Virus record (IMG/VR): IMGVR_UViG_3300012931_000759
Coordinates: 1-64,000 of that record
Direction: 5' to 3' (one strand)
Origin: a virus
Length of the DNA stretch: 64,000 bases
Shown: in pieces, positions 5,515-58,248 of the stretch
Layout of the letters: every line of letters starts with the position of its first letter
Numbering within the stretch: the stretch's first letter is position 1
Program-made: the position numbers and the translations under genes
Notes under the pieces: model-generated
What the model saw: only the letters and a program-made list of their open reading frames with translations
Told to the model about the DNA's origin: nothing
The model's database searches: none

Positions 5515-5522
5515 ATTGATAG
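5515..5522 (-). promoter_or_regulatory. CTATCAAT motif, copy a
   Basis: On the minus strand the sequence reads CTATCAAT followed by an AT-rich stretch with GTATAA. No clear minus-strand gene lies downstream, so this copy is the weakest of the set. Confidence 0.3.
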
Positions 5523-5533
5523 AAAGGCTCATT

Positions 5534-5995
5534 ATGAGATTTGTTCTTGGAGATGTTACCAAACCACAAGGCGAAGGACTAAAAATAATAGCCCATGTCT
5601 GTAATGATGCTAATGGCTACGGATCAGGCGTGGCTGGAGCTATAGCCAAATGCTGGCCTGAGGCCAAATTAGCCTATCATAGGTGGCACGCCAAGGCCGA
5701 GAATTTCGCGCTGGGCATGGTCCAGCTGGTCAAGCTTCCGGATGGGATCATCGTCGCAAACATGGTGGCCCAGCACGGGTACGCCTACAAGGGCCATCCG
5801 GCCATCCAGTATCCTGCACTCCACATGTGCCTGTCCAAGGTCGCGAAGCGCGCCAAGGAGTTGGGAGCCTCCATACATTGCCCGCGTATAGGGTGCGGAC
5901 TGGCTGGAGGGACATGGGACAAGGTCGAGCCCATTATCCTCGAGACCATGGACGGTGTCGATGTGACGGTGTACAATTTTCGGGAAGATGTGTAA
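5534..5995 (+). CDS. macro domain protein (ADP-ribose binding)
   Basis: 153 residues from ATG 5534 after AGAAAGG. Macro-domain features: GDVT near the N-terminus, IIAHVCNDANGYGSGVAGAI (the Asn and Gly-rich loop that hold ADP-ribose), VANMVAQHGY and PRIGCGLAGGTW (phosphate-binding loop). Macro domains bind or hydrolyse ADP-ribose and some remove it from proteins. The window also encodes a PARP (35644), PncB (27207) and NadE (52150), so a role in reversing or sensing ADP-ribosylation is plausible. Whether it hydrolyses or only binds cannot be read from sequence. Confidence 0.88.
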   Translation: MRFVLGDVTKPQGEGLKIIAHVCNDANGYGSGVAGAIAKCWPEAKLAYHRWHAKAENFALGMVQLVKLPDGIIVANMVAQHGYAYKGHPAIQYPALHMCLSKVAKRAKELGASIHCPRIGCGLAGGTWDKVEPIILETMDGVDVTVYNFREDV

Positions 5996-6447
5996 TGAGC
6001 GAATTCATAAAGAATGTCAGGATGGCGTGGGCAGGGATGAAACCGCAGGACCAAGTCTGTACTGTCTTGATGATCCCGCTGGGAATTGTGGGCGTGGCCT
6101 TTATCGCACACGGGATACTTGCTGACAGAGGATGCGCCGCACATGTCGGAGTGTGGACTTATGCCACCGACGGGTTAGCGGCCCTCATCCTTGGTATAGT
6201 ACTTGGGACTTATGCCGCCTTTCTGGTGCGCATCGTCATTGGCGTGCCGGAGATTGCCATGGCGGCCAAGAAGAAGGTATACAAGATCCGGGATGAGCGC
6301 GAGTGGCGTAGGACGCACTATCCTAACGACCGTAGTTTCGATTGGGGTCCAATCCTGCGCACGACACTGTTATTCCTGGTAGTCGCAGCGACAGTCATCA
6401 TGATTGGCGGTGGTATCGGGTACATTACCTGGCTTCTGTTCTGCTAA
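5995..6447 (+). CDS. membrane protein with three hydrophobic segments
   Basis: 150 residues; the ATG shares its A with the upstream TAA. Hydrophobic segments lie at about residues 22-42, 57-82 and 121-147. A basic loop (MAAKKKVYKIRDEREWRR) lies between the second and third. Family unknown. The tight coupling to the macro domain gene suggests co-expression. Confidence 0.6.
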   Translation: MSEFIKNVRMAWAGMKPQDQVCTVLMIPLGIVGVAFIAHGILADRGCAAHVGVWTYATDGLAALILGIVLGTYAAFLVRIVIGVPEIAMAAKKKVYKIRDEREWRRTHYPNDRSFDWGPILRTTLLFLVVAATVIMIGGGIGYITWLLFC

Positions 6448-43122: not shown

Positions 43123-44742
43123 ATGTCGAAAATTGTCAAGTACGACGATGAAGCACGCCAACTGATCAAGAGCGGCGTGGACAAGCTCGCAAACGCCGTG
43201 AAGGTTACGCTCGGCCCAAAGGGCCGAAATGTCCTGCTACGCAGGGAATACGGCATGTCACACGTCACAAAGGATGGGGTGACCATTGCCAAGGAGATCA
43301 CTCTACGCGACCAGTTCGAGGACATGGGTGCACAGATGGTGAAGCACGCAGCCCAGACCACATGCGACGAGGCTGGGGACGGCACGACCACCGCAGCTCT
43401 GCTGAGCCAGGCCATCTACGCCAGCGGGTTGAAGCTGATGGCGGCTGGACACAATCCAATGGATCTGAAGCGCGGCATCGACAAAGCTGTCACCAAGGTG
43501 GTCGAAACTCTCGGCGGCCTCGCGCAAGAGACCAGGGATCCGAAATTGATTGCGCAGGTTGGCACAATCAGTGCCAACGGCGACACTACGATCGGCGGCC
43601 TTATCGCACAGGCGATGGAGAAGGTGGGGCGCGACGGCGTCGTCACCATCGAAGAGGCCAAGGGGCTCGATACGACGCTCGAAGTGACCGAGGGCATGCG
43701 GTTCGACCGCGGCTATCTGTCCTCCTATTTCGTCAATGTGCCCGAACGCGCCGAAGCTGTGCTCGACAACTGCCTGGTCCTGATCAGCGCGAACCGGATC
43801 GACAACGTACAGGATCTGGTGGAGCTGCTCAACACCGTGGCGAACGCGCAGGCACCGCTGCTAATCCTGGCGGATGACGTGGGCGGCACCGCCCTGCCAG
43901 CCCTGGTGATCAACAAGATGCGCGGCCTGTTGAAGGTTTGCGCGGTGAAGGCACCCGGATTCGGAGACAGGCGGCTCGACATGCTGAAGGATATTGCCGT
44001 CCTCACCGGAGCCACTCTGTTCTCTGAGGAAACCGGGGTCAAAATTCCGACAGCTACCGTCGGCATGCTTGGAAGGGCTGAGAAGGTCGTGATTACCAGG
44101 AACCACACGACCATCATCGGCGGCATGGGCACCAAGGAGGCCATCCGGGAGAGGATCGAGCAGGTGAAGCTCGACATCGAGCAGGCCACGAGCGAGTGGG
44201 ACAAGGGCAAGGCCCGCGAGCGCCTGGCCAAGCTGCTTGGGGGAGTGGCCGTGGTGCGTGTCGGAGCGCCGACCGAGGCCGAGATGAAGGAGAAGAAGGA
44301 CCGGGTCGAGGACGCCATGAACGCCACCAAGGCGGCCGTCGAGGAGGGTATCGTCCCTGGCGGCGGCGTGGCCCTGCTCCGCTGCTCCAAGTCCGTGGCC
44401 GACTTCATCGGGTCGCTGCCGGAAGTCGAACAGGCGGGAGCCCGCGTCATCCTGGAGGCCCTGCGGGCCCCGCTGAGGCAGATCGCGGCCAATGCCGGCG
44501 AGAGCCCCGACATGGTTGTCGCCACGGTTGATGGCGAGGTTCCGAACTATGGTTGGAACGCCGCCACCGGAGAGTATGTGGACATGATGGAGGTCGGCAT
44601 CATCGACCCGAAGAAGGTCGTGCGCTGTGCGCTCCAGAACGCCGCCAGTGTGGCGGGCCTGCTGCTGACCACCGAAGCGATGGTTGCGGACGATCCGGAC
44701 GAGGAGAAGCCGAAAGGCGGCCCCCCGCAGATGGGGATGTAG
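43123..44742 (+). CDS. groL: GroEL chaperonin
   Basis: 539 residues, close to the bacterial length. ATP-site motifs NVLLRREYG with KDGVTIAKEI, CDEAGDGTTTA and VPGGGVALLR are intact; KAPGFGDRR marks the apical domain. The C-terminus ends GGPPQMGM. It folds proteins in a double ring. No groES partner is seen in the window, so it may use the host co-chaperonin. Confidence 0.97.
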   Translation: MSKIVKYDDEARQLIKSGVDKLANAVKVTLGPKGRNVLLRREYGMSHVTKDGVTIAKEITLRDQFEDMGAQMVKHAAQTTCDEAGDGTTTAALLSQAIYASGLKLMAAGHNPMDLKRGIDKAVTKVVETLGGLAQETRDPKLIAQVGTISANGDTTIGGLIAQAMEKVGRDGVVTIEEAKGLDTTLEVTEGMRFDRGYLSSYFVNVPERAEAVLDNCLVLISANRIDNVQDLVELLNTVANAQAPLLILADDVGGTALPALVINKMRGLLKVCAVKAPGFGDRRLDMLKDIAVLTGATLFSEETGVKIPTATVGMLGRAEKVVITRNHTTIIGGMGTKEAIRERIEQVKLDIEQATSEWDKGKARERLAKLLGGVAVVRVGAPTEAEMKEKKDRVEDAMNATKAAVEEGIVPGGGVALLRCSKSVADFIGSLPEVEQAGARVILEALRAPLRQIAANAGESPDMVVATVDGEVPNYGWNAATGEYVDMMEVGIIDPKKVVRCALQNAASVAGLLLTTEAMVADDPDEEKPKGGPPQMGM

Positions 44743-44789: not shown

Positions 44790-44819
44790 CTGGCATAATG
44801 ATTGACGGAGGTGAAGCAC

Positions 44820-45762
44820 ATGGAAAGGACAGAAAAAGGAAAGTTCTCCAAACAGTTTGAGATCAATAGGGAGTTGTTGATGTCATACTGTGTAGAAGGT
44901 CTATCTCAGAACAGAATTGCGCAACTTTTGGGGTGTTCGCAAGCGCTCATAAGCAAACTTTTCAAGAAGTTTGTGATCCTGACCAGAAGGAATTTCAAAC
45001 CTCACGATGCCGTGGTTCTAACCGATGCTCAGAACGACATCCTGTTTGGCATCCTTCTTGGCGATGGGCATCTGACTGCTAGGAAAAGTGGGAACAGTCA
45101 ACTGTCGTACCTGTCGCATCTTGAGGCGCACTCCAAATACGTCGGGAGTTTTTTTTGAGGACATCTTGACGCCAGAAACAAGATGGGCACCCAAACACTC
45201 TTGCGTTTTTGACCAGAGGACAGGTCGGGCGTACCACCAATACCGCATACGGACACAGAACAATCCGACTTTTTCTGCGCTTCGCCAGAAATGGTACCGC
45301 AATGGCAGGAAAATCGTGCCAGCAGATCTTGTGTTGAACAGCCGTATCTGTTTATTCTGGTACATGGACGATGGCGGTCTTGTGAACACAAACGGCGGAC
45401 AGGAGATCAAACTGTCAACTCATGGTTTTCTGCGGGAAGAGTTGGAAAAAGTGTTGGCGCCTCAACTGGTCGCTTTCTCTCCGCGACTACAGAAAGAGAC
45501 GACCACGACCGGCTCGGAACAGTTCTCAATCAGGATCCCGAGGGGCAAAATATCGAAGTTCCTGTTGTTTGTTGGGGATTGTCCGGTTGAGGAACTCCGC
45601 TACAAATGGCGGTTCAAACCATACAAAAGACCGTCGCTGGCTGATCCCAATTTTGCCAGAACGATTAAGACCTTGTATGCCAACGGGCTCTCGAAAACAG
45701 ATATTGCCGCACAGTTTGGCGTGTCTCGTGGATGTGTCTCGTACCATCTGAACGCACGGTGA
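44820..45762 (+). pseudogene. LAGLIDADG homing endonuclease split at a T8 run
   Basis: The first frame (ATG 44820 after GGAGGT, to 45158) has an N-terminal helix-turn-helix (LSQNRIAQLLGCSQALISK) and FGILLGDGHLTA, a first LAGLIDADG helix. A run of eight T near 45151-45158 ends it. The second frame (to 45762) carries LFWYMDDGGLV, the second LAGLIDADG helix, and a final helix-turn-helix. Reading one T fewer joins them into one ~313-residue enzyme. Confidence 0.75.
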
Positions 45763-45767
45763 AGCAA

Positions 45768-46575
45768 ATGAAAGACTCTTTAGGCAACCGCATGAAACAG
45801 TATGAGTCGTTGAGCGATATCTCCCTTATGCGTCGCACTCCCGTTTTGGTGCGTCTTTGATGGCAAGGGCTTCTCCAGGCTGACCAAGCGGCTCAAGCTC
45901 GACAAGCCGTTCGACATGTGGTTTCTGGACGCCATGGCCGACACGATGTTGGCCGTGGCGTCCCAGGTTCAGGGGTGCGTGGTTGGATACACGCAGTCAG
46001 ACGAGATCAGCCTCGTGCTGGTCAACCACCAGTCCATCGACACCGAGCCGTACTTCGGCAACCGCGTGCTGAAGATCGCAAGTGTCACAGCAAGCATGGC
46101 AACCGCCAGGTTTAACCGCTGGCTGCGCGTGCGCGACGAAAAGGCAGAGGCTTGCTTCGACTCCAGGGTGTTCACGGTGCCATCCGCCATGGAGGCTACG
46201 AATGCCCTGGTCTGGCGTCAACAGGACTGCGTGAGGAATTCGATCCAGTCGGCTGCATACTACGAGATCGGCGCATCAAAGGGACGCAAGACAACCCAAG
46301 GTATGATACATGGACTGGATACCTCGAAACTCCAAGAACTCCTGTTCCAGGAGGTCGGAATAAACTGGAGCACGAAATATCCGGCGGAGCTGAAAAGGGG
46401 AACTGTGGCGTACCGCAAACCGGTGGAGGTCGAGACACCAAACGGCAAAGCCGTCAGGATGTGCTGGATCAGGGAGGCGGCTCCAGTGTTCCAGTCGAAG
46501 GATGGAAGGGCCTGGCTGCTGTCTCTGATGGAGACCGCGCCCAAAGACGGCAAGGAGCCGACCGATGGCGAGTGA
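45768..46575 (+). CDS. thg1: Thg1-type tRNA-His guanylyltransferase, needs +1 frameshift
   Basis: About 268 residues if joined as 45768-45857 plus 45859-46575. The 5' frame has DSLGNRMKQYESLS and MRRTPVLVRL and then hits CTT TGA at 45855-45860. The +1 frame continues at once with DGKGFSRLTKRL, GCVVGYTQSDEISLVL (metal-binding Asp pair) and QQDCVRNSIQSAAYYE, the bacterial/archaeal-type Q-x-x-x-N motif. Thg1 family enzymes add a nucleotide in the 3'-to-5' direction; some members repair truncated tRNA 5' ends. CTT TGA is the same slippery stop as in the release factor 2 gene. It lies directly after the homing endonuclease. Confidence 0.85.
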
Positions 46576-47629
46576 GATGATCCAAAGGTTGGCGAGGCTG
46601 GTCGCCCATAGGGACGGGACCCTCCTGTACCCGAAAGGCGACGGCCGTGTCGAGATACCACACGGCATAGTCCGGTTCATGGGATGGAGTGATAAGTCCA
46701 CGGTGTGGATAGGCAGGAGTCCTGGGTGCCTCGTCCTCTCAAACGAAAGGCAGGACGATACCGTTGGGCGGGTGGCAGTGAGCATGGAACGGGTCAGGGT
46801 GCCGATGTCCATCCTGAAGTCCGCCGCGATGGGCGACGGTCCTGTGGTGGTGTCCATAGACCTATCTGGAATCATCGTGGTGCGCAGGCATCTGGAGGGA
46901 TCGGCCGATCTGGCGGATCTCGAGGGTGCGTTCGGGGAGGCCGGGGAGCCGGTCTGCCAACGGCTTCTCGGCATTCTGGGCAGCTACAGGCAGGCCATAG
47001 ATGCTGAAGAACAGCCCATCGCTACCGTGGTGACGCCAAAGCCAATCGGTGTCCCGCAATCCTTGACCGAGTGGAAGTACGATATCATCAACAACGGGAA
47101 ACCCAAGCTTTTCTTGATGAACATGAACAAGCCCACGATCATCAGAGTTGTCGGCATGCCGTTCGCGTTCCAAGCCCATTGGGTTCCAGCCCAAGACCAC
47201 ACAGCGGGCAGGATCGTGCCACATTCCGACGGATGTTCGCTGTGCAGCATAAGGGCCCCCGAACGCATGTCGCTTGTTCCCGTCATCAAGAAATCTGATG
47301 GGCGTTCCGAGCACGGTTTCCTCCTGGCGCAGGAGGACCTGCGTTCGAAGATAGCCAGTCGGTTGGCTGGTAGGAACCCAACAGATTTTGATCTTGTTCT
47401 GTACTTTGCGCCCTTTCAGGATGGGATGTGCTCGGTGTACATAGTCCCTCCGGAAGTGCTGCCGGACGATCTTGTCAAGCTGGCGCAAGCAGCTTGCGCC
47501 GATCCAGATGGGTTCGTGGCGGAGACGTTTGGAAGCGATCCGCCGGAGGGGCGCCCGGCAAGGGCGCCAATGTTCATTGTCGAGGGGCATTTTGCCGAAG
47601 ACGCTAAACCCCGCAACCTTGCGAAGTGA
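46565..47629 (+). CDS. large protein with AbrB-like N-terminus
   Basis: 354 residues; ATG 46565 overlaps the thg1 end. Residues 15-55 (VEIPHGIVRFMGWSDKSTV) suggest a SpoVT/AbrB-like barrel. The middle is helical. The C-terminal half (CSLCSIRAPERM, FLLAQEDLRSKIASRLAG, DFDLVLYFAPFQDG) has a Cys pair and an alpha/beta layout I could not assign. It lies directly upstream of infC. Confidence 0.5.
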   Translation: MASEMIQRLARLVAHRDGTLLYPKGDGRVEIPHGIVRFMGWSDKSTVWIGRSPGCLVLSNERQDDTVGRVAVSMERVRVPMSILKSAAMGDGPVVVSIDLSGIIVVRRHLEGSADLADLEGAFGEAGEPVCQRLLGILGSYRQAIDAEEQPIATVVTPKPIGVPQSLTEWKYDIINNGKPKLFLMNMNKPTIIRVVGMPFAFQAHWVPAQDHTAGRIVPHSDGCSLCSIRAPERMSLVPVIKKSDGRSEHGFLLAQEDLRSKIASRLAGRNPTDFDLVLYFAPFQDGMCSVYIVPPEVLPDDLVKLAQAACADPDGFVAETFGSDPPEGRPARAPMFIVEGHFAEDAKPRNLAK

Positions 47630-47631
47630 GC

Positions 47632-48159
47632 ATGCGCGATTTCAAAAACCAGAATTATCCGCCTGAGAGGGCGATCAGGACGAGGACAGTACTACTGATC
47701 GATGCTAAGGGAAAGAACCTTGGTATTGTGGACACACGAGATGCGTATCGCATGGCAGAGTCCGCTGAGCTGGATCTGGTCCAGATCGGCGACGGAAAAA
47801 ACGGTGTCCCGGTCTGTAAGATAATGGACCACGGCAAGTGGAAATACGAGCAGTCCAAAAAGCGTAAAGCGACAAAAGCAGTCCAGCAATTGACCAAAGA
47901 ACTGAAGATTAGGCCGAACACCAGCGAGCACGATCTCAAGTACCGCGCTGAGCAGGCCGCGTCGTTCCTTACGGATGGAGACCGGGTCAAGGTCTTGGTA
48001 AGGTTCAAGGGTAGGGAGCGAACCCACATGACTAACACCGGCAAGCAGGTCATGGAGAAATTCCTGGCGATGCTCGACCCAACTAAGTACAAGGTTGAAA
48101 AGCCGGTAGAGATCGGGGAGAGAGACATATCCTTGACCCTAATTCCGGTGAAACAATGA
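47632..48159 (+). CDS. infC: translation initiation factor IF-3
   Basis: 175 residues. N-terminal domain: TVLLIDAKGKNLGIVDTRDAYRMAE. The linker VCKIMDHGKWKYEQSKKRK and the C-terminal domain (ELKIRPNTSEHDLKYRAEQA, FLTDGDRVKVLVRFKGRE) are those of IF-3. It binds the 30S subunit and controls start-codon selection. A phage copy may favour phage mRNAs; bS21 is also encoded here. GTG 47626 is an alternative start. Confidence 0.95.
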   Translation: MRDFKNQNYPPERAIRTRTVLLIDAKGKNLGIVDTRDAYRMAESAELDLVQIGDGKNGVPVCKIMDHGKWKYEQSKKRKATKAVQQLTKELKIRPNTSEHDLKYRAEQAASFLTDGDRVKVLVRFKGRERTHMTNTGKQVMEKFLAMLDPTKYKVEKPVEIGERDISLTLIPVKQ

Positions 48160-48662
48160 TTGTCACAGACCAGGCAGAACTCAGGAAGCCGAACGAGCTA
48201 GCTTCGTCCGACGAGGCAATCGGCATCATTACCAAACTTGAGCATGAACTTGCCACGTCCTCTCGGCTTGGTATTGGACTGGCAGCTCCACAAATTGGTG
48301 TACACAAGCGCGTTGCCATCATACGCACAAAGGAACATTTAATCGACCTCGTAAATCCCATCATATTCGACATGGAGCATGGAATACTCGTCAAGAATGA
48401 GGGATGCCTAAGTATGCCTGGGATGTCGGTCGATACGTGGAGATTCAGTGAGATCCTCTTCAGGTGCGATGGAAATCCAGCTGGCGTCGTGGCAACTGGG
48501 CTTGAAGCTGTTGCTATACAGCATGAGATAGATCATCTAGATTGTATGTTAATGGTTGATCGGGCCATCCGAGGTGGCGTTGGGAGAAATGACCCATGCC
48601 CTTGTGGTAAACATACAGATACTGGAAAACCGGTCAAGTTCAAAAAATGTCACGGACGTTGA
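48156..48662 (+). CDS. def: peptide deformylase with C-terminal SEC-C zinc motif
   Basis: 168 residues. Motif 1 GIGLAAPQIGV, motif 2 EGCLSMPG, motif 3 AIQHEIDHLD: the PDF metal and catalytic set is complete. The C-terminus adds GRNDPCPCGKHTD...KFKKCHG, a SEC-C zinc motif as in SecA. PDF removes the formyl group from nascent chains at the ribosome exit. The SEC-C fusion is unusual and may help it bind ribosomes. ATGA coupling to infC. Confidence 0.9.
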   Translation: MIVTDQAELRKPNELASSDEAIGIITKLEHELATSSRLGIGLAAPQIGVHKRVAIIRTKEHLIDLVNPIIFDMEHGILVKNEGCLSMPGMSVDTWRFSEILFRCDGNPAGVVATGLEAVAIQHEIDHLDCMLMVDRAIRGGVGRNDPCPCGKHTDTGKPVKFKKCHGR

Positions 48663-55947: not shown

Positions 55948-56172
55948 ATGGATATACAATACTTTGTATTTCTTGACAGGTTGAAACGGATGCGCCGCGA
56001 CGGCGATTCCAATTGTGACGCGCGCATCCTTAGTGAAATGGAATCACAGCAGGCTTTTGTTGATGAAAGGAAATTAGTTGGTTCGATTCCAACCATCAGC
56101 GCAACCTGCACATTGGGGGTTCGAGTCCCTCAGGATGCAAATGAGGCTGAAGCTTTGACGGCGAAGCCGTAG
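55948..56172 (+). CDS. doubtful ORF overlapping a tRNA
   Basis: 74 codons from ATG 55948 with AAGGAG upstream; the first half reads like protein (FVFLDRLKRMRRDGDS, SEMESQQAFVDERKL). It runs through the Lys tRNA-like gene 56024-56139. Either the N-terminal part is a broken gene into which tRNA sequence moved, or the frame is fortuitous. Confidence 0.25.
   Translation: MDIQYFVFLDRLKRMRRDGDSNCDARILSEMESQQAFVDERKLVGSIPTISATCTLGVRVPQDANEAEALTAKP
56024..56139 (+). tRNA. tRNA-Lys(TTT)-like with insert in the anticodon loop
   Basis: 116 bases. Acceptor GCATCCT/AGGATGC, D-stem GTGA/TCAC, anticodon stem GCAGG/CCTGC and T-arm GGGGG-TTCGAGT-CCCTC fit a tRNA. The anticodon loop CTTTT...AA is interrupted by 44 bases that fold as acceptor-like GTTGATG/CATCAGC around a second T-arm (GTTGG-TTCGATT-CCAAC). 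Without the insert the loop is CTTTTAA, a normal Lys loop. The insert's T-arm equals that of 53583-53699, so recombination is a simple source. Confidence 0.5.
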
Positions 56173-56214
56173 GCTCTTAACCTATAGAACCGAGTTCGAC
56201 TCTCGGCAGCCTCA
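56143..56214 (+). tRNA. tRNA-Lys(CTT)
   Basis: 72 bases. GAGGCTG/CAGCCTC acceptor, D-arm GCTT/AAGC, anticodon arm GTAGG-CTCTTAA-CCTAT, T-arm CCGAG-TTCGACT-CTCGG. Ordinary cloverleaf, three bases after the gene above. Confidence 0.85.
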
Positions 56215-56215
56215 C

Positions 56216-56286
56216 TTCGGAGTCGTCCAATAGGAAGGACGGCGGTCTTTGACACCGCATATCCCAGTCCGAGTCTGGCTCTGGAT
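56216..56286 (+). tRNA. tRNA-Gln(TTG)
   Basis: 71 bases. Anticodon arm GCGGT-CTTTGAC-ACCGC; acceptor TTCGGAG/CTCTGGA with two G-T pairs; D-arm GTCC/GGAC. The T-loop has TCCGAGT rather than TTCGA, and the T-stem has four clean pairs. Probably functional but divergent. Confidence 0.7.
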
Positions 56287-56294
56287 TTAATATT

Positions 56295-58117: not shown

Positions 58118-58248
58118 AGGACGCGCAAAGGGGAAAAGTCTACAAGCGAATTAGCTCAGTCGGTTTGAGCGTCTGACTATGGATCAGAAGGTCAAGGGTT
58201 CAAATCCCTTATCCGCGACAAAATCCGACTTGCTCACTCGCGCGTCCT
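58118..58248 (+). ncRNA. YrlA-like Y RNA with tRNA-like domain
   Basis: Outer helix AGGACGCGC (58118-58126) / GCGCGTCCT (58240-58248), then AAAGG and CTCACTC, then AAGTC/GACTT. Inside is a tRNA-like body: D-arm GCTC/GAGC, anticodon arm TCTGA-CTATGGA-TCAGA (ATG), T-arm AAGGG-TTCAAAT-CCCTT, with a weak acceptor. Matches the RNA at 53704 in all outer parts. Its 3' strand overlaps the end of the minus-strand endonuclease gene. Confidence 0.6.

Follow-up and report, generated by a model that had tools for sequence, protein, structure and literature searches.

A conserved CTT TGA +1 frameshift site at the probable edge of a homing endonuclease cassette in phage thg1 genes

Introduction

Two kinds of described system bear on the locus presented here. 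In prfB, the gene for release factor 2 (RF2), the shifty stop is CUU UGA, at which tRNA-Leu re-pairs from CUU to UUU during slow recognition of UGA; the spacer codon before it is normally UAU or UCU and not CGU, and the UGA is followed by C (PMC13245932). In gene 60 of phage T4, according to a recoding review (PMC5009743), an endonuclease insertion is coupled with a 50-nt bypass, and the insert is believed to guard against the nuclease. The subject of this report is a thg1 gene, encoding a tRNA-His guanylyltransferase (Thg1), in the virus record IMGVR_UViG_3300012931_000759. Positions 1 to 64,000 of that record were analysed and are referred to as the window, to which plain coordinates refer. 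The CTT TGA in this gene is probably the right-hand edge of a homing cassette that carries a LAGLIDADG homing endonuclease gene (HEG), with a +1 shift yielding full-length Thg1 and with the extra base likely to hide the homing site.

In the open-access literature searched, no paper joining tRNA-His guanylyltransferase and programmed frameshifting was found, nor any like case of a homing endonuclease combined with ribosomal frameshifting. The GeneTack survey (PMC3711429) does not mention frameshifting in thg1, and neither does the accessible part of the recoding review (PMC5009743).

Results and discussion

The shift site and the read-through product

Three features of the window make up the gene as it is now read.

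45768..45857, + strand: cassette-borne copy of thg1 codons 1-30 (the N-copy), frame 0, from the open reading frame (ORF) and an alignment; the corresponding stretches of four other phages are 100% identical and belong to the cassette.
45852..45860, + strand: shift site CGT CTT TGA, consisting of the E-site Arg codon, the P-site Leu codon and the A-site stop; the same nine bases occur in seven thg1 genes belonging to four cassette lineages.
45859..46575, + strand: native 3' part of thg1 in the +1 frame, opening with the catalytic D31-G32; PF04446 and PF14413.

From the ATG at 45768, frame 0 translates in the window as MKDSLGNRMKQYESLSDISLMRRTPVLVRL and closes at the TGA of 45858-45860, directly after CGT CTT (the nine bases span 45852-45860). 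The +1 frame is open from 45814, reads DGKGFSRLTKR... from 45859 and reaches its stop at 46573-46575. When CTTT is read as one step, the Pfam Thg1 score is 113.3 bits, versus 57.8 bits for the downstream frame alone. In an alignment with 13 phage Thg1 proteins the junction is free of gaps and falls between R29-L30 and the invariant D31-G32, and the family residues D31, G32, D78 and E79 are all present. Both marks of membership in the Thg1 family (PF04446), the domain and the metal-binding Asp residues, are thus found in the read-through product, and the 340,392-base record has a single copy of thg1. A preliminary description of this DNA had stated that the thg1 frame halts at CTT TGA and that the +1 frame resumes with DGKGF where the family continues, and the alignment and scores bear this out.

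Recurrence of the site in other phages

A general pattern for such breaks (any Arg codon and any NTN P-site codon before T-GAY) was scanned against 2.9 million viral contigs; shifted thg1 cassettes are detectable in this way only if they match the pattern. It returned 23 viral contigs, six of which carry thg1 (loci L095, L097, L098, L100, L102 and L187). All six have exactly CGT CTT TGA, with the break at the same place as in the window. A narrower pattern, CTTTGA in context, returned eight viral contigs, five of them other broken thg1 genes. The L098 locus also appears in a further record, L208, which comes from the cultured isolate Eubacterium plexicaudatum ASF492.

Intact genes look different at this position. 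Among the 99 Thg1 loci first collected, 95 have a single frame across the site, and the loci gathered include about 94 intact thg1 genes, all those without a cassette being unbroken there. The codons CGT CTT occupy the equivalent position in only 4 of 62 intact genes, so that the recurrence of CGT CTT TGA in 6 of 6 shifted ones exceeds chance. The preliminary description had regarded CTT TGA as a +1 shift site of the prfB type and had looked to related phages for its conservation; with six further thg1 genes the site is conserved, and by sequence it is a credible shift site and not an error.

A sequencing or assembly error in the window was considered, given that the window is a single record and that the adjoining HEG is itself broken in a run of eight T. 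However, the CTT TGA site has only three T, and the same site is present in at least six other assemblies. Because it recurs in this way, once in an isolate genome, an error is very unlikely.

The upstream homing endonuclease gene

Directly 5' of the N-copy lies a HEG, whose reading frame in the window is not intact.

44820..45158, + strand: 5' part of the LAGLIDADG HEG, frame 0, with an alternative start TTG at 44802 and ending at the TGA of 45156-45158; homologous to the L098 HEG.
45149..45156, + strand: run of eight T that breaks the HEG frame, with a +1 continuation (TTT TTT TGA G); an indel, a sequencing error or (transcriptional) slippage.
45157..45762, + strand: 3' part of the HEG in the +1 frame, with LAGLIDADG_2 (PF03161, 49.9 bits) and a helix-turn-helix (HTH_7, 25.4 bits).

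With its parts joined, the window HEG is 35% identical to that of L098 (177 bits). PF03161 scores lie above the curated cut-off (49.9, 70.8 and 72.3 bits, the first being that of the window). A related HEG stands directly 5' of the shifted thg1 in the window, L097, L098/L208, L100, L102 and L187, and a HEG of this family was found near none of the about 94 intact thg1 loci. An open frame over the 335 codons of the L187 HEG requires that TAG be read as Gln; the gene contains the LAGLIDADG_2 domain. Its phage (IMGVR_UViG_3300029305_009391) is probably TAG-recoded, and this HEG has a NUMOD-like tail. At L095 the search finds no HEG upstream of thg1. A stretch of 24 codons there resembles the C-terminus of the L187 HEG at 10 of 24 residues in a by-eye alignment and is followed by the same ribosome-binding site (RBS); it is apparently a remnant of a HEG tail.

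Two more LAGLIDADG_2 genes occur in the window phage outside the window (G000:C1:206145-206621 and 212186-212722). In Acinetobacter phage vB_Ab_02_KEN_02 (L216, 1201-3226), a distantly related LAGLIDADG gene overlaps the 3' end of the dnaB helicase gene, possibly through another mode of insertion. This overlap was rejected as a parallel to thg1, the arrangement being different, with the HEG at the 3' end of the gene.

Cassette borders and spread

In L097, L098, L100 and L102 (the L097 group), the cassette consists of the HEG, an RBS and thg1 codons 1-31, and it ends sharply at CTTTGA. Among these four loci the HEG is 98.8-99.9% identical, and the RBS and N-copy are 100% identical. Identity drops at the shift site: the native 3' parts of thg1 are 78-84% identical, and the outer flanks are unrelated or poorly alike. 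The cassette has therefore spread horizontally and recently, as one block, in this group.

In five loci (the L097 group and L187), a displaced fragment of the native thg1 5' end lies 5' of the HEG; the cut follows LMRR in the L097 group and PVI in L187. In the L097 group these fragments are 84-99% identical (84-91% except for L098 and L102). The fragment is frameshifted in L098 and L102 and has lost its start codon in L100, and it is therefore the N-copy of the cassette that most likely serves as the start. Between the GroEL-like gene upstream and the HEG of the window, no native 5' fragment was found. Empty sites are represented in relatives by the intact L219 and by the about 94 intact loci.

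Occupied (cassette-bearing) thg1 target: CGTCTTTGACGG; the empty counterpart is L219-like.

Since the cassette is near-identical where its flanks have diverged, and since the native 5' fragment is displaced upstream, the HEG appears to insert into thg1 and to bring a new 5' end that would be joined to the gene through a +1 shift. A tree of the thg1 3' parts requires four changes of the shifted label, the outcome to be expected if the insertions had struck different thg1 lineages. A group I or II intron or an intein was rejected as the mobile unit: no intron RNA was detected, with no intron family match up to E = 1, and the HEG forms an ORF of its own, after which thg1 starts anew.

Constraint on full-length Thg1

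In the window thg1, the +1 frame offers a start codon only from 45916 on, 3' of the catalytic Asp, and in every locus the first such start lies 11-23 codons past that residue. Thg1 might instead be produced with no frameshift, either as a protein in two pieces or from an internal start in the +1 frame, and HEG insertions in T4-like phages that yield working split enzymes are a precedent (PMC2988022). However, any product begun at these starts would lack D31-G32, which makes this alternative very improbable; with no +1 start before the catalytic Asp, active Thg1 requires the shift.

A more serious alternative, although an unlikely one, is that the cassette merely breaks thg1, with the N-copy acting as a homology arm, the downstream part being a young pseudogene and the frameshift having no function. 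The insertions in the L097 group do appear recent, and L187 has a second frame break within its thg1 3' part. Yet the window, with its HEG broken and its native fragment gone, and L095, with only the apparent HEG tail left, both retain a full-length 3' frame. The N-copies of the four cassette lineages keep their protein over deep divergence at synonymous sites (pN 0.24-0.41, pS 0.47-0.82). At the residues that they share, degenerate codons for Arg, Lys, Glu, Leu, Arg, Pro and Val vary and Tyr is invariant, and among six-fold degenerate codon pairs only the final CGT CTT is fixed in all four. An exact CTT TGA, moreover, is seldom expected from a random indel. In the L097 group, synonymous sites upstream of the shift are constrained, but this was rejected as a sign of a cis-acting signal, as the recent spread of the cassette explains it.

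Proposed mechanism

In the favoured explanation, a LAGLIDADG HEG would have invaded thg1 at the codons of the catalytic DG motif. The cassette's own thg1 5' end (the start and codons 1 to about 31) would replace the severed native one and would join the native 3' part with a single surplus base. Only ribosomes that shift +1, from CUU onto UUU, at a poorly terminated UGA, as in prfB, would then produce full-length Thg1, presumably at a useful rate, and the shift would lessen the harm done to the host gene. The extra base occupies the right edge of the cassette, where the rebuilt gene would otherwise restore the homing site; by analogy, it may block cleavage by the cassette's own endonuclease and so confer immunity to it. 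The broader proposal, for which the chances appear about even, is that this is a new class of selfish element, in which a HEG targets active-site codons and supplies a recoded 5' end, and the shifty stop both hides the target and keeps the enzyme expressed; once the HEG decays, as in the window and L095, the gene would be left committed to obligatory +1 frameshifting as a scar.

Several observations weigh against the favoured explanation. The window's own HEG is broken, and L187 has the second frame break in its thg1 3' part. The four cassette lineages are related by descent, so that the shared site reflects conservation and not fully independent origins. The constraint behind the low dN/dS of the 3' parts in the L097 group partly predates insertion and is no proof of present function, because those insertions look recent. 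The GGTG upstream of the window site is absent from the other shifted loci, which have no Shine-Dalgarno (SD)-like element in common and no common RNA structure. With no shared stimulator and with CGU as an unusual spacer, the efficiency of the shift could be low; its rate may be modest, or a stimulator of another kind may act.

Stimulators and the comparison with RF2 control

The preliminary description had noted a weak SD-like GGTG just upstream of the site. In the window this element is present at the prfB spacing and is indeed weak, with a duplex of -5.1 kcal/mol versus -9.8 kcal/mol for E. coli prfB, but it does not extend to the other loci; the best SD-like duplexes are -5.1 (window), -3.1, -2.5 and +0.4 kcal/mol. 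Only the L097-type N-copy, which amounts to one sequence, is more folded than its shuffles (z about -3). The codon before CTT is CGU in all seven thg1 genes, in place of the UAU or UCU of prfB, and the base after TGA is T in the window and L187 and C in L095 and the L097 group.

These data bear on the possibility that the shift is a prfB-like regulatory device, sensing RF2 level or translation state and selected to control Thg1, with the HEG being incidental. The CUU UGA motif is that of prfB, and this large phage also encodes an RF1-like release factor; even so, such control is improbable, more so than simple gene breakage. A HEG or an apparent remnant accompanies every +1-shifted thg1 recovered and no intact one, the SD-like stimulator is missing, the 94 intact thg1 genes manage without a shift, and the PxT-type motif of the phage factor is expected for UAG/UAA and not for UGA. 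The earlier proposal of a sensor of host translation state with an SD-like stimulator is accordingly not upheld, there being no shared SD-like element and either T or C after the TGA. Some dependence of the shift on RF2 level is nevertheless plausible by analogy with prfB.

The release factor gene of the window phage lies outside the window (G000:C1:94741-95439; L211 742-1440) and adjoins a NUDIX-like gene. It encodes a 232-aa protein with PCRF and RF-1 domains and a PPT motif typical of RF1.

Neighboring genes and other features of the window

The thg1 region is flanked by two genes on the same strand.

43123..44742, + strand: upstream neighbor, a GroEL-like gene, from the ORF list.
46565..47629, + strand: downstream neighbor, a 354-aa protein with no family assigned, overlapping the end of thg1; from the ORF list and a domain search.

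Searches with the downstream neighbor and with a large ATPase found no close relatives of the window phage. A translation-related cluster, judged by sequence, adjoins thg1 at 47626-48662, with a gene resembling that for translation initiation factor IF-3 (47626-48159) and, directly after it, a peptide-deformylase-like gene that has a SEC-C-type tail. At 56143-56288, ARAGORN calls a tRNA-Lys and a tRNA-Gln that overlap by two bases, for which 5' repair of the Thg1 type might matter. The tRNA at 58145-58219 is called His, with the anticodon ATG instead of the usual GTG. At 5516-6447 there are long overlapping ORFs (5516-5995, phosphatase-like, and 5683-6447), and the coding-frame score switches at 5995, a possible frameshift or overlap.

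Implications and comparison with known systems

If the broader proposal is true, ordinary genes could acquire programmed frameshifting by this route. The favoured explanation would account concretely for how a programmed frameshift came to be in a gene that does not obviously need it. The arrangement is present in several phage lineages, with one copy in a cultured gut bacterium, and gene finders will miscall genes of this kind as pseudogenes.

In enzyme family, the gene belongs with the phage tRNA-His guanylyltransferases (Thg1, PF04446), its read-through product having all the catalytic residues. In its recoding signal it resembles the +1 frameshift of prfB (PMC13245932, PMC3711429), as in both cases CUU UGA occurs early in the gene and the +1 shift is obligatory for the full product. 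Unlike prfB, thg1 has no AGGGGG, has CGU instead of UAU or UCU, has T or C after the TGA, is not autoregulatory and is tied to a mobile element. The split nrdA of phage Aeh1, interrupted by mobE (PMC2988022), likewise has a HEG in a critical part of the host gene; there, however, two polypeptides reassemble, with neither a replacement 5' end nor recoding.

T4 gene 60 is the textbook link between recoding and a HEG, and here another endonuclease family, another gene and another recoding event seem to solve the same problem. In mobA and gene 60 (PMC5009743), as in thg1, a HEG has entered a conserved phage gene and stands immediately 5' of a recoding signal, through which the gene can still be read. 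Features of the mobA/gene 60 type that are found at thg1 are the HEG directly 5', a split host gene with empty sites in relatives, and spread as a block. By contrast, mobA is an HNH endonuclease gene associated with a topoisomerase gene and a 50-nt hop, whereas the thg1 cassette combines a LAGLIDADG endonuclease, a tRNA-repair gene and a one-base +1 shift, and, unlike mobA/gene 60, it brings a replacement 5' end for the gene that it enters.
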